From positions 62,001-126,000 of the forward strand of contig CALLIK010000006.1 in NCBI GenBank assembly GCA_938009235.1: DNA of 64,000 bases, written 5' to 3'. Below, one piece after another: positions 16,764 to 21,231 of the stretch (positions within the stretch are counted from its first letter, which is position 1; every line of letters starts with the position of its first letter). A program made the position numbers and the translations under genes. Source of the stretch: an uncultured Caulobacterales bacterium (GTDB lineage: Bacteria > Pseudomonadota > Alphaproteobacteria > Caulobacterales > Maricaulaceae). Below the pieces are notes generated by a model. It searched no databases. It had not been told where the DNA came from and saw only the letters and a program-made list of their open reading frames with translations.

Positions 16764-17459
16764 TTAAGCGGACATTTTCTCTTTGGCTGGATCACGGAGG
16801 ACATAACCTCGGCCCCAGACAGTTTCGATGTAGTGTTCGCCCATTGTGGCGGCTGCGAGTTTCTTGCGAAGCTTACAGATAAATACGTCGATAATTTTGA
16901 GTTCTGGCTCGTCCATGCCGCCGTATAGGTGGTTCAGGAACATTTCTTTCGTGAGGGTCGTGCCCTTACGTAAGGAAAGAAGTTCAAGCATTTGGTATTC
17001 TTTGCCCGTCAAGTGAACGCGATGATCGCCAACTTCGACAGTTTTTGCGTCGAGGTTCACTTTGATGTCGCCTGTCGTGATGATGGACTGGCTGTGGCCT
17101 TTGGAACGGCGAACAACGGCGTGGATACGCGCGACAAGTTCGTCTTTATGGAAAGGCTTGGTCATGAAGTCATCAGCACCTGTGCCGAGACCGCGAACTT
17201 TGCTGTCGATATCATTTGTACCAGACAGGATGAACACAGGCGTGTTGACCTTGGCCATACGCAATGTCTTTAGAACGTCAAATCCAGGCATATCTGGCAA
17301 ATTTAGGTCCAATAGGATAATATCATAGTCGTAGAGCTTGCCGAGATCGACACCCTCTTCGCCGAGGTCAGTTGTATAGACATTGAAGCCTTCAGACTTC
17401 AGCATCAGTTCGATGCCTTGTGCCGTGGCCATGTCGTCTTCGATTAGAAGAACTCGCAT
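16764..17459 (-). CDS. ctrA: Cell-cycle response regulator CtrA
   Basis: OmpR-type master regulator of alphaproteobacterial cell cycle, flagellum, pili and DNA replication. At 231 residues it is the usual length. The receiver domain has acidic residues near 8-9, phosphoacceptor Asp51 in [11 protein letters not shown], and a KPFHKDE segment near 104-110. The C-terminal winged helix is almost word for word the Caulobacter form ([19 protein letters not shown] and [14 protein letters not shown] stretches). The tail ends ...SA rather than the Caulobacter ...AA seen as a ClpXP signal, so proteolytic control may differ. Upstream DNA holds TTAAC words and a GANTC site. It is divergent from the FliJ-like gene. 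Confidence 0.97.
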
Positions 17460-17797: not shown

Positions 17798-18172
17798 ATG
17801 GCGCATTCCAGTGAACGAAATCTCGTGAAGACCCGATTCCAAATTGAAGACCTTCAAAAGCGTATTTCAGTTCTAAGCGCCACGCGTGAAGACTTGGAAC
17901 GTCAAATTCGGAAGCTGAACGATAGTGTTCCTGAGGATGAGGTTGAAGCTAACGCGCACAAGGAAGGCTACGTTGCCTATGGTAGTTACGCGAAATCGGT
18001 GATTGCTCGCAAAGAAAACTTGCGGCGCACATTGGGCGATATTGGTGGACAAAGTGGTCAGCTCGCTGATCAATTGAAAGTGGCGCTTGATGCTCTGGAT
18101 AGCTTTGAGAGAATTAAGGCTCGCCGCCTTGCAGATAAAGCTGAACGCGCCCTGGCGCGTAAGTCGGCTTAA
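17798..18172 (+). CDS. FliJ-like coiled-coil protein (flagellar export)
   Basis: Protein of 124 residues, almost wholly alpha-helical and charged, with heptad-like Leu/Ile spacing in both halves (RFQIEDLQKRISVL and LADQLKVALDAL). Size and pattern fit FliJ, the stalk of the flagellar type III export ATPase. The match is by pattern, so other coiled-coil proteins cannot be excluded. ATG at 17798 was chosen because GGTGGAG lies seven bases before it; the GTG four codons upstream is part of that binding site. No fliI lies beside it. It is divergent from ctrA, which fits CtrA-controlled flagellar genes. Confidence 0.6.
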   Translation: MAHSSERNLVKTRFQIEDLQKRISVLSATREDLERQIRKLNDSVPEDEVEANAHKEGYVAYGSYAKSVIARKENLRRTLGDIGGQSGQLADQLKVALDALDSFERIKARRLADKAERALARKSA

Positions 18173-18269: not shown

Positions 18270-18548
18270 TTAACTTTCATCGTCTTCGACCCACTCATAT
18301 AGTTCACTAAATCCGGATGCTTCAGCAATTTGGTTCCAGTCCGTTTCAATTTCGTCCGCAGGTTGAACCCAAAAAAGCGTGGCCGCCACAGCCATAGCTG
18401 CAACGCCTCCCATTGCCCACCAAGGTCGACGAGATTGACTGTCATTCGCTGGCGCTGATGATTCCGCTGCAGCCAAAATTCGTATCGATAGATCTGCGCG
18501 CGGCGCAGGAGGCGCGTTATTGGAGAGCATATGATTAAGGTCGGTCAT
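18270..18548 (-). CDS. Probable membrane anti-sigma factor, small
   Basis: Protein of 92 residues: a short cytoplasmic N-terminus (about 1-42, including APPAPRADLSIRILAAAES), one membrane helix near 43-64 (WWAMGGVAAMAVAATLFWV) and an acidic C-terminal tail rich in Glu and Asp. Its start overlaps the sigma factor stop by 4 bp, so it is co-translated, which is the usual arrangement for an anti-sigma partner. No zinc-binding HxxxCxxC motif is present. The role is inferred from membrane topology and operon position. Confidence 0.6.
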   Translation of the reverse strand: MTDLNHMLSNNAPPAPRADLSIRILAAAESSAPANDSQSRRPWWAMGGVAAMAVAATLFWVQPADEIETDWNQIAEASGFSELYEWVEDDES

Positions 18549-19102
18549 AGTGTGAGACTCGCTTTCTCATTCATCAGGTTGGATTTTAATTTTGAACGGG
18601 CCCGTGATAGAAGGCTTTCGTAGGCTTTTTCGCTGACACCTAAGGCGGATGCACCTTCGCTTTGGCTCGCATGTTGGTAATATGACAGTACCAACGCCGC
18701 ACGTTGGCGTTCTGGCAAGGTCAAAATAGCAGCTTGAACGCGCTGTGCTATTTCTGATCGCACAAGACTAATATCAGCACTCGGCGTGAGGTCTGGACGG
18801 TCCGGCACAGCGTCAGAGTAAATTGGTTTTTTACGTCTTCGCTCGTCGATACATAATCGTGTCGCAACGCGGCGCAACCACGTCAGAATGGTCGCTCCGC
18901 CATCATTGCTCCAGCGCGGTGCAGCTTGCCAAAACCTAAGAAAGGTTTCCTGAGAAATATCTTCCGCTTGCGTTCGGTCGCCTGTCATGTGCCAAGCCAA
19001 AGCATGCACTCGATTTAGATGTCTGTCCATTAAGGCCGCCAAAGCAGCGGACTCTCCTGCCCGCAATGAGGGCAGGAGGTCGATATCAGGATCTTGTTTC
19101 AT
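18545..19102 (-). CDS. ECF sigma factor (sigma-70 family)
   Basis: RNA polymerase sigma subunit of 185 residues with region 2 (HLNRVHALAWHMTGDRTQAEDISQETFLRFW near 28-58) and region 4 (LPERQRAALVLSYYQHASQSEGASALGVSEKAYESLLSRAR near 131-171), separated by a polar linker with no extra domain. It turns on an extracytoplasmic-stress regulon when freed from its anti-sigma partner. It is the second gene of an operon: an exported EF-hand protein lies 17 bp upstream and the membrane partner overlaps downstream. This points to a signal involving calcium or another divalent ion at the cell surface, which is inference. Confidence 0.9.
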   Translation of the reverse strand: MKQDPDIDLLPSLRAGESAALAALMDRHLNRVHALAWHMTGDRTQAEDISQETFLRFWQAAPRWSNDGGATILTWLRRVATRLCIDERRRKKPIYSDAVPDRPDLTPSADISLVRSEIAQRVQAAILTLPERQRAALVLSYYQHASQSEGASALGVSEKAYESLLSRARSKLKSNLMNEKASLTL

Positions 19103-19119: not shown

Positions 19120-19752
19120 TTATTGCTCGCCTTGCATTTTACGTCTGCCTTTTTGACCTTTGCGTTTGCCGCCTTCGCCTTTGACTAAGACGCCGTCGCC
19201 ATTTGCGTCCATGCGGACAAATAGCTGGTCAGATACGGCAATGTGCTCTTCGAGCGAAACGAAACCGTCTTCATTTGCATCAGGCTTTGGGCGATCTGCT
19301 CGACGTGATTTTTTGTCACCACGTTTTGCGTCTCGTCCTTTTTTGAATTCACCTTGCATGGCTGTGCGTTCAGTTTCGCTGAGTTGACCATCTAGGTTCG
19401 TGTCAAACTTTTCGAGTATTTCAGCGCGGCGTTCCGCTTTTCGAACGTCTTGTGCGTTTCTCTTTTCGTCCATTTCTGCGCGGGAAATACTGCCATCTTT
19501 GTCAGTATCTAAGCGTTCAAATTTACGACTTTCGCGCTTGTCGCGACGCGCTTGTTTCAAAGCTTTACGTTCGTCTTCGCTCAGTAAATTATCACCATTG
19601 GTGTCTGCGACTGTAAAGCGATCCACTGCGGTTTGCGTGAATTCAGCTCTTGTGACTTGGCCGTCTTGGTTCAAGTCGGCTTTTGGACTAGCTGCAATCA
19701 AAAGCGCCGCGCCTGAAGCCATCAATGCTGTGGTAAGTAGTGTGCGTTTCAT
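19120..19752 (-). CDS. Exported EF-hand protein with about six calcium-binding loops
   Basis: Protein of 210 residues with a signal peptide (MKRTLLTTALMASGAALLIAA). Six loops of EF-hand type follow: DLNQDGQVTRAEF, DTNGDNLLSEDE, DTDKDGSISRAEM, DTNLDGQLSETE, DANEDGFVSLEE and DANGDGVLVKGE, all with Asp/Asn/Gly at the expected metal-binding positions. The intervening helices and tail are rich in Lys, Arg and Glu. The start at 19752 was chosen over an upstream in-frame Met (19788) because AGGAG sits just before it and the signal peptide begins here. It leads the operon with the ECF sigma factor and its likely anti-sigma partner, so it may be a calcium sensor or a target of that sigma factor. Confidence 0.85.
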   Translation of the reverse strand: MKRTLLTTALMASGAALLIAASPKADLNQDGQVTRAEFTQTAVDRFTVADTNGDNLLSEDERKALKQARRDKRESRKFERLDTDKDGSISRAEMDEKRNAQDVRKAERRAEILEKFDTNLDGQLSETERTAMQGEFKKGRDAKRGDKKSRRADRPKPDANEDGFVSLEEHIAVSDQLFVRMDANGDGVLVKGEGGKRKGQKGRRKMQGEQ

Positions 19753-19875
19753 TTTCGTCTCCTGTATGAAGGTCTTACACACTAACACACGGACGAAAGC
19801 AGTAAATCCTTCGCGAAAACTGAAAATTATTTTTGAGACATTGCCTTAGCGCGAGCTAGACTTCCGCAACATCTA

Positions 19876-20586
19876 TTAGGCGACGACGGCTTGGCGTTCC
19901 ACGTGATCTCGCATTTGCTCCAGGAGCCGCATTTCTATGTGCATGTCATCAATATGCCCGCCATAGGGCATAGGCGCCCCTAAATGCTCTCGGACTGTAT
20001 CTGACAGCATCAATGCTGTTTCTACAGCATCACACCGATCTCCAGTCGAGAGAATGACGGGGTCGAAACCAGCATCACGACGACGGACAGCATCTACCAT
20101 CCAGAACGCGCGCATAAAGCTGTCCCCTTGCGTATCATAAGTCATAATGGACACATCGGATGCCGCCCCTAGACGTACATGCGCAGGCGTACAGCCAGCC
20201 TCTGGTACGACGAATACCCAGTCGTAGGACAGTGATAATGCGGCTAGAAGACCTAATGCGTCCTCGAGGCTTTGTGAGCCAACTGCGCCAGCAGTGAAAT
20301 GTTCATTCGATGTCACATAAAGGGCATCACGAGCCTGTGCTTCACCACGTGCCACGTCGTCCAAAGTTCGAGCATATACAATACCAGCGCTTTGAAGGAG
20401 TTTTCCGCCTATAGCATCCAAAACCAAAACAGTTTCGCCATAGCTTGCAGCTTCTCGACCTAGTTTCACCACGAGGTCAAAAGTCGCTTCAGCTTCGCCA
20501 CTGGCAGTGTACAGACTTACCAACCGGCAAGCTGGTTCATAGCGATCTTTTTGAGCCCTAATGGGCGTATGTTTTAATCGAGTCAT
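19876..20586 (-). CDS. MinD/ParA-like protein lacking the P-loop
   Basis: Protein of 236 residues with the fold pattern of deviant Walker A ATPases of the MinD/FlhG group but no ATP-binding loop. Where the family has KGGVGKT it reads TASGEAEATF near 27-36, followed by the strand ETVLVLDAIGG, where MinD has LLIDxDxG. The later strand YDWVFVVPEAG also has the wrong residues for hydrolysis. The C-terminal half (FMRAFWMVDAVRRR) keeps the helical pattern. It may be a non-catalytic partner of an ATPase, perhaps in cell polarity or flagellar placement; that is inference from the neighbouring ctrA and sciP genes. No relative was named with confidence. Confidence 0.5.
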   Translation of the reverse strand: MTRLKHTPIRAQKDRYEPACRLVSLYTASGEAEATFDLVVKLGREAASYGETVLVLDAIGGKLLQSAGIVYARTLDDVARGEAQARDALYVTSNEHFTAGAVGSQSLEDALGLLAALSLSYDWVFVVPEAGCTPAHVRLGAASDVSIMTYDTQGDSFMRAFWMVDAVRRRDAGFDPVILSTGDRCDAVETALMLSDTVREHLGAPMPYGGHIDDMHIEMRLLEQMRDHVERQAVVA

Positions 20587-20823: not shown

Positions 20824-21096
20824 CTAGCGGTATTGTTGTACCCGAGTTGTCCGAAGCCCGGCAATGCCGTGGCTTTCGATAGAACGCTGCCAAGACATAA
20901 ATTCTTCTGCCGTAAGGCTGTAGCGCTCTAGCGCTCCATCTAAGGTTAGTAGTCCGCCTCTTACGGCTGCGACGACTTCAGCTTTACGTCGGATGACCCA
21001 CCGTACAGTATTAGGTTTCGGGAGATCAGCCAAAGTCAGAGGTGTGCCCTCTGGTCCAATGACCACATTCTCGCGCTTTATTTTGCGTTCTAGCAT
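20824..21096 (-). CDS. sciP: CtrA inhibitor SciP (DUF1153)
   Basis: Small regulator of 90 residues that binds CtrA and DNA and blocks CtrA-driven transcription in swarmer cells. Seen: IGPEGTPLTLADLPKPNT near 13-30, the hallmark RWVIRRKAEVVAAVRGGLL near 32-50, a helix-turn-helix-like ERYSLTAEEFMSWQ, and the C-terminal GLRTTRVQQYR. The start at 21096 was preferred because it gives the family length and is preceded by AGGAATGG; an in-frame ATG at 21153 would add 19 residues of no evident conservation. The upstream region carries four GANTC sites. Confidence 0.93.
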   Translation of the reverse strand: MLERKIKRENVVIGPEGTPLTLADLPKPNTVRWVIRRKAEVVAAVRGGLLTLDGALERYSLTAEEFMSWQRSIESHGIAGLRTTRVQQYR

Positions 21097-21231
21097 GTTT
21101 TGCCCATTCCTATGGTTCGCCCACTCTGAACCCGTTTTTGTTGTGTCATTCATGTAAGCGACAGGGTCTTAAAAACAGTTTAAGGAAATCTGGAAAAATC
21201 GTTTAGATACAATCGTTTACGAAGGTTAATG

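Follow-up and report, generated by a model that had tools for sequence, protein, structure and literature searches.

The closest described system is the cabp-sigV pair of Caulobacter vibrioides, and the available part of PMC13171946 (2026) describes CaBP as an exported protein of 133 aa with three EF-hand loops, whose gene adjoins the ECF gene sigV (CCNA_02838/CCNA_02837). Both genes were induced by EGTA and by acid, in C. vibrioides only, both were SigT-dependent, and SigV was named as the main sigma factor for cabp (PMC13171946). The cabp promoter was mapped by 5'-RACE and consists of GGAAA, a 13-nt spacer and CGTTCA; it stayed low in the delta-sigV strain and was raised approximately 3-fold by overexpression of SigV (PMC13171946). 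CaBP gave a gel shift with Ca and none with Mg or EGTA, and the two genes were transcribed as separate monocistronic transcripts, with an internal promoter for sigV (PMC13171946). In the sections available, the dependence on CaBP of the EGTA induction of cabp is given in two conflicting ways: the cabp-promoter profiles under EGTA were similar with and without CaBP in one experiment, and the induction was weaker without CaBP in another section (PMC13171946). In the CnrYXH system of Cupriavidus metallidurans, as far as the consulted text describes it, metal binding by CnrX in the periplasm is thought to switch CnrY, which frees the sigma factor CnrH (PMC4598750). The two helices of CnrY wrap the sigma factor, and the class to which CnrY is assigned has domains shorter than about 50 residues (PMC7406223, consulted in part). 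The authors of the work on EfhP of Pseudomonas aeruginosa named anti-sigma factors as possible partners of this protein (PMC11559002, consulted in part).

The window, which is the whole stretch of 64,000 nucleotides analysed here, carries a module that is taken as orthologous to cabp-sigV on the basis of sequence comparison. The best match of the window's sigma factor in a Caulobacter-like genome was the cabp-sigV locus, and in a near-relative locus (L038) four of the eight published primers aligned with 0-1 mismatches (Procabp5 with 0; sigV-5, sigV-3 and sigV-del with 1 each) and the other four with 3-6. CaBP-SigV was the sole EF-hand/ECF pair found described in the literature searched; it has been in print since 2026, so the kind of system seen here is already known. 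The same literature gave no description of the anti-sigma candidate, of a fourth gene or its loss, of a conserved promoter together with a first regulon member, or of the tail motif. We lean towards an autoregulated ECF sigma/anti-sigma switch in which the exported EF-hand protein would be the periplasmic partner. A response to calcium or a divalent metal had already been proposed for this locus in the original prediction, and the published experiments on the orthologous pair in C. vibrioides, as far as available, support a calcium response.

Table 1. Features of the module (positions are those of the window)
Feature	Position	Strand	Description
Predicted ECF-type promoter	19787..19812	-	GAAGGATT-N13-CGTGT, from 19812 down to 19787
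Exported EF-hand protein	19120..19752	-	210 aa; six 12-residue loops; mature pI 8.8
ECF sigma factor	18545..19102	-	185 aa; Sigma70_r2 4.3e-19; Sigma70_r4_2 1.5e-14
Candidate anti-sigma factor	18270..18548	-	92 aa; overlaps the sigma gene by 4 bp
Clade-specific tail motif	18285..18338	-	WNQIAEASGFSELYEWVE; residues 71-88 of the anti-sigma candidate
Convergent unrelated ORF	17801..18172	+	directly beyond the module; this slot holds the PF13801 gene in many relatives

The module reads, 5' to 3' on the minus strand, as a promoter-like site, the EF-hand gene, the ECF sigma gene and the gene of a 92-aa one-helix protein (Table 1). The EF-hand protein begins with MKRTLLTTALMASGAALLIAASPKA, which is signal-peptide-like as judged by eye from the sequence, and it has no Cys and therefore no lipobox. 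Its loops start at residues 26, 50, 82, 117, 158 and 182, and Pfam EF-hand_5 matched five stretches (E 2.6e-19). Mean column identity in 15 orthologues was 0.95 at the loop ligand positions 1, 3, 5 and 12, and 0.56 in the rest of the mature protein. The nearest solved sequence is that of an EF-hand calcium-binding protein (E 3.8e-5), and the AlphaFold structure, which was computed from a single sequence, was too poor to use (pLDDT 62.7). Between the end of the EF-hand stop codon at 19120 and the sigma ATG at 19102 there is a gap of 17 bp. The sigma protein contains only regions 2 and 4 according to Pfam, as an ECF sigma factor does, and its nearest NCBIfam model is NF004113/PRK05602 with 188.8 bits, under the cut-off of 208. 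The layout in the original prediction was confirmed, namely a signal-peptide-like start with six EF-hand loops 17 bp before an ECF sigma gene and, overlapping the latter by 4 bp, a small membrane protein with one hydrophobic segment and an acidic end. Upstream of the module, a 236-aa ORF at 19876-20586 (-) matched neither Pfam nor NCBIfam models at E<=1, and the CtrA inhibitor SciP is encoded nearby at 20824-21153 (-) (NF051866, E 6.2e-41). A response regulator, presumably CtrA-like, is encoded at 16764-17459 (-) on the module's other side from SciP, and a regulator ORF of like kind lies beyond the module in several loci of the family (L011, L015, L017 and L021).

The original prediction had named, as a result that would speak against it, a sigma factor whose relatives are not accompanied by the EF-hand gene. 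A search with the sigma protein covered 100 genomes, one of them the window's, and gave some match in 99; the 89 best-hit loci that were fetched form the order sample, the other 11 genomes having a match too weak or none, and one locus of this sample (L120) encodes a sigma factor with just 30% identity, probably no orthologue. In a Caulobacter-like genus 41 genomes were searched and the loci of 30 fetched, the other 11 having weaker matches, and outside the order 94 genomes passed E 1e-20 for the sigma factor and 67 of their loci were examined. A gene with at least two loops, upstream of the sigma gene and on the same strand, was counted as an EF-hand neighbour. Such a gene was found within 300 nt in 84 of the 89 order loci and within 350 nt in 85, in 28/30 Caulobacter-like loci and in 33/67 loci of the class outside the order. 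It was found in none of the 20 loci of other ECF genes from the same genomes, a control set that includes one locus (L139) placed by a separate check. The EF-hand/sigma pairing is thus beyond chance (85/89 against 0/20), and the overall interpretation first given to the locus is supported. The sigma factor stands without an EF-hand gene in 34 of the 67 loci outside the order, which counts against the switch model.

The CGT of the predicted promoter starts 39 nt ahead of the EF-hand ATG. The form GAAGGAWW or GAAGGATTG, followed by 13 nt and CGTGT, is common to the window and eight close relatives before the EF-hand gene, and GCGACGGAAT-N13-CGT occurs in four Caulobacter-like loci; the motif was defined from these nine genus and four Caulobacter-like sites and the published one, so they are not independent tests. 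A loose motif, GGA[AT][ATC]-N13-CGT (GGAWH-N13-CGT), was sought in the 160 nt upstream of the EF-hand gene, and loci without a signal-like start were left out of the tallies. It was found in 14/16 genus loci, 43/67 other loci of the order, 25/27 Caulobacter-like loci and 9/29 loci of the class, with shuffle means of 0.2, 1.0, 0.4 and 0.4, respectively. A further group has the form with a 14-nt spacer (13 order and 7 class loci), and spacers of 9-12 and 15-17 nt were found in 0-2 loci. With either 13 or 14 nt, the motif is present in 70/83 loci of the order sample, 24/26 Caulobacter-like loci and 16/29 class loci. Directly upstream of the sigma gene it was found in only 5 of 147 loci, duplicates included, and it occurred at 1 of 19 control loci. 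A scan for sigma-70 promoters gave 4 sites, where shuffled sequence averaged 3.8.

The strict motif matched 16 times in nine genomes, against one match for the reversed pattern, and nine of the 16 are the modules that defined it. Of the seven remaining matches, three lie ahead of YHYH or YHYH-fusion genes, one ahead of an ORF resembling a glycosyltransferase by look only, one ahead of a doubtful 86-aa ORF, and two fall inside ORFs. In the window's genome the strict motif occurs only at the EF-hand promoter and at one other site, which precedes a gene of a YHYH lipoprotein (PF14240, E 6.6e-38). In two relatives it also stands before a long ORF that carries a YHYH part at its C-terminus; the ORF is a sulfatase by Pfam in G005 and by likeness only in G016. 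A looser motif lies at -50 and -51 of the YHYH genes in G006 and G018, and the motif was absent upstream of three other YHYH genes (L238, L239 and L241). The last of these, L241 (G000:C3:174300-179200), is a 1024-aa ORF of the window's genome whose YHYH part lies towards the end and which has no sigma motif ahead of it, and two relatives have similar ORFs but with the motif. Allowing one mismatch in the window's own genome gave 10 matches against 5 for the control, which was too noisy to extend the regulon. The conserved promoter and the strict copy at the YHYH gene suggest autoregulation and a small regulon; autoregulation had been put forward before and is supported by the motif before the EF-hand gene. 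The promoter and the YHYH protein, as first regulon member, provide ready reporters.

The third gene encodes about 40 residues, one transmembrane helix (about residues 43-61 by hydropathy) and an acidic tail with the end EWVEDDES. The RR before the helix and the acidic residues after it point to an N-inside topology, so that the protein has the layout of a membrane anti-sigma factor, adjoining an ECF gene, with one helix and a predicted cytoplasmic N-terminus. The match to the NCBIfam model NF052375 'anti-sigma factor' was weak and below cut-off (E 1.6e-5, 25 of 100 bits); among 73 third-gene members, 35 matched this model at E<=0.01 (best 5.9e-9), and any one Pfam family fitted at most one. 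A transmembrane ORF lies directly downstream of the sigma gene in 76 of the 89 order loci and in 3 of 20 control loci under the length limit used later (2/20 at first). In the 13 loci without it there is mostly a long overlapping or weakly hydrophobic ORF instead; one is at a contig end and two have nothing. An N-terminal segment of YG..RWP type was found by a loose pattern in 104 of 150 downstream transmembrane proteins, and the window's genus has a short form without this segment. A search of the anti-sigma alignment against PDB sequences gave nothing below E 0.25, and the matches at E<=1 were at chance level. The AlphaFold structure, computed from two sequences, had a pLDDT of 53.6 and was too poor to use. 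The third gene is thus a conserved gene for a candidate anti-sigma factor.

According to an ORF rule, a further gene follows the anti-sigma candidate in 98 of 144 rows, and the fuller layout consists of the EF-hand gene, the sigma gene, the anti-sigma candidate and a CnrX-type gene. The last of these is not mentioned in the original prediction. The tables for the fourth gene and the tail motif omit rows with a sigma match below 80 bits, no transmembrane ORF, a candidate above 215 aa or less than 450 nt of downstream sequence, as well as the duplicates L032, L048 and L149, and 145 and 144 rows were kept. The fourth-gene product is an N-terminally anchored periplasmic protein, and it matched PF13801 (Metal_resist), which we take to be the family including CnrX, above cut-off in all 20 loci tested, ten without and ten with the EF-hand gene. 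The ORF rule was checked by Pfam in these 20 loci and genome-wide in 40 genomes. PF13801 was found beside the sigma gene in 7/7 genomes whose loci carry the fourth gene. It was found in 0 of 18 genomes of the window's genus, where the control search was positive in C. vibrioides, and in 0 of 8 further genomes of the family and 0 of 7 of the f4 family whose loci lack the fourth gene. By these genome-wide absences, at least two lineages lack the fourth gene, the window's among them. Both lineages, the window's and f4, have EF-hand proteins with 5-7 loops; such proteins also stand beside a fourth gene in 10 loci, which counts against the switch model. In the raw table, proteins with at least five loops are without the fourth gene in 33 rows and with it in 10, and those with 2-4 loops are without it in 13 and with it in 63. 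A class-wide trade-off between loop number and the fourth gene was tried and rejected, as only three supported independent pairs exist and the result was not significant. Two loci of one genus, L014 (G056:C344) and L022 (G034:C3), are neighbours in the sigma tree with opposite retention: L014 kept the PF13801 gene and has no upstream EF-hand gene, and L022 kept the EF-hand gene in a genome without PF13801.

The tail motif was found in 22 of the 23 rows of the window's family without the fourth gene against 0 of 23 with it, and in 0 of 98 rows outside the family. Because the 22 tails were selected by the pattern [LIVM][YF].W[VI], conservation at those positions is by choice; ahead of the pattern, and not by selection, an A and a G are invariant in the 22 tails and a W is present in 20. 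In a tree of 59 sigma proteins the motif falls on one branch (support 99/98), indicating one origin. L022, although of the window's family, lost the fourth gene without gaining the motif. The changes within the family, motif and gene loss, lie on nearly one branch and therefore amount to about one event, not replicated tests. Outside the family, 23 rows lack both the fourth gene by the ORF rule and the motif, 7 of them f4 rows with the fourth gene absent genome-wide and 16 others, which counts against a general rule. In the group with the motif, net charge has a median of +7.5 for the basic EF-hand proteins (range -2 to 15) and of -10 for the acidic tails; where family members carry the fourth gene, the EF-hand proteins have a median of -3 (range -21 to 22) and the tails one of -7. 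This charge difference is one of medians, and its wide overlap counts against the switch model.

The module is read as a CnrYXH-like switch with the EF-hand protein as the only periplasmic partner left. By analogy with CnrY, the 92-aa membrane protein, with its N-terminus inside, would hold the sigma factor at the membrane. The calcium-loaded, basic EF-hand protein would dock on the acidic, aromatic tail in the periplasm and so keep the anti-sigma factor bound to its sigma factor. If calcium were lost, or acid protonated the loop carboxylates, the contact between EF-hand protein and tail would change and the sigma factor would be freed to transcribe the operon that encodes it and a small regulon of envelope genes, that of the YHYH protein among them. 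Activation by calcium loss, as the direction of the signal, is borrowed from the partly available experiments in C. vibrioides (PMC13171946), and the anti-sigma activity, the docking and the signalling through the tail are likewise inferred. In the window's lineage an older metal sensor, anchored in the membrane, may have been replaced by the EF-hand protein; with this protein in the place of CnrX, both a genus without PF13801 and the conserved tail would be explained. We regard as tentative the full form of this idea, in which the anchored CnrX-type sensor was discarded and a soluble calmodulin-like EF-hand protein became the sole sensor through a new acidic, aromatic-anchored tail peptide. 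If true, such a swap would mirror the recognition of targets by calmodulin, with the charges reversed and outside the cytoplasm. With no fourth gene and a new tail, the window's lineage offers a naturally reduced form of the system, free of a second sensor, in which to test EF-hand input, and a simple setting for testing how bacteria read extracellular calcium.

The EF-hand protein could also be output only, a sigma-induced calcium buffer or envelope protector, with the sensing done by the anti-sigma factor or a protease that cleaves it. This is rather unlikely in our judgement, even though the promoter motif marks the EF-hand gene as a target, 14 loci have an RWP-type anti-sigma candidate and a fourth gene without an EF-hand gene of at least two loops, and the f4 lineage has neither PF13801 nor the tail motif. 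Against it stands the window's clade, where PF13801 is gone from the whole genome and the anti-sigma tail acquired a conserved motif. The two accounts of EGTA induction in the available sections of PMC13171946 divide here, the similar profiles favouring output only and the weaker induction without CaBP opposing it. Sensor, buffer and output had all been offered as roles in the original prediction: output is probably right, and input, which the switch model requires, is also favoured but not settled.

It is improbable that the system senses another divalent metal or a lanthanide, as CnrYXH senses Co/Ni, with the EF-hand protein binding that metal. The 'heavy-metal resistance' gene PF13801 is common to the relatives and the EF-hand protein weakly matched the LanM and XopAW models, but the scores were below cut-off (NF053806 LanM 33.8 of 135 bits, XopAW 60 of 120 bits) and neither likeness was accepted. 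Lanmodulin loops have a proline at position 2, and the window's loops have canonical calcium ligands and no proline there. The gel shift of CaBP, seen with Ca and not with Mg or EGTA, argues for calcium as well (PMC13171946, available part). A further reading places the module under the general stress response, with SigT/EcfG driving the promoter and the neighbouring sigma factor adding little. It would fit the reported SigT dependence of cabp and sigV, but is very improbable given the low cabp promoter in delta-sigV (PMC13171946, available part), the recurrence of the 13-14 nt spacing before the EF-hand gene across the order and, against it too, the longer spacers of EcfG promoters.

As compared to the known systems, the switch model resembles CnrYXH, as far as described in the texts consulted, in having an ECF sigma factor, a small membrane protein that here is a candidate anti-sigma factor and a periplasmic metal-binding partner, in the length of about 40 residues before the transmembrane helix against under about 50 in the CnrY class, and in the PF13801 gene carried by the window's relatives. 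It differs in that an extra EF-hand gene, whose product is not membrane-anchored, comes first in the operon, that neither the window nor any of the 18 genus genomes has a CnrX-type (PF13801) sensor, and that no solved structure matched the anti-sigma alignment above chance level. EfhP is likewise a bacterial EF-hand calcium sensor that affects ECF-controlled genes; a neighbouring ECF/anti-sigma pair is not described for it in the available part of PMC11559002. The likeness to cabp-sigV is closest: an exported EF-hand protein adjoins an orthologous ECF sigma factor, with the EF-hand gene directly upstream in the window, and the promoter elements, a -35 GGA and a -10 CGT with a 13-nt spacer, precede both EF-hand genes. 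The window's EF-hand protein is the positional counterpart of CaBP (CCNA_02838), with 210 aa and six loops against 133 aa and three. The monocistronic transcripts reported for C. vibrioides differ from the one-operon picture of the window and count against the switch model. L038 and L033 encode an anti-sigma candidate of 150 aa and retain the PF13801 gene next to the sigma gene; in the window the candidate has 92 aa and carries the new tail, and PF13801 is absent. The membrane component missing from the published CaBP-SigV scheme could be supplied by the third gene and the PF13801 fourth gene, which are concrete candidates also in the near relatives of the model organism.
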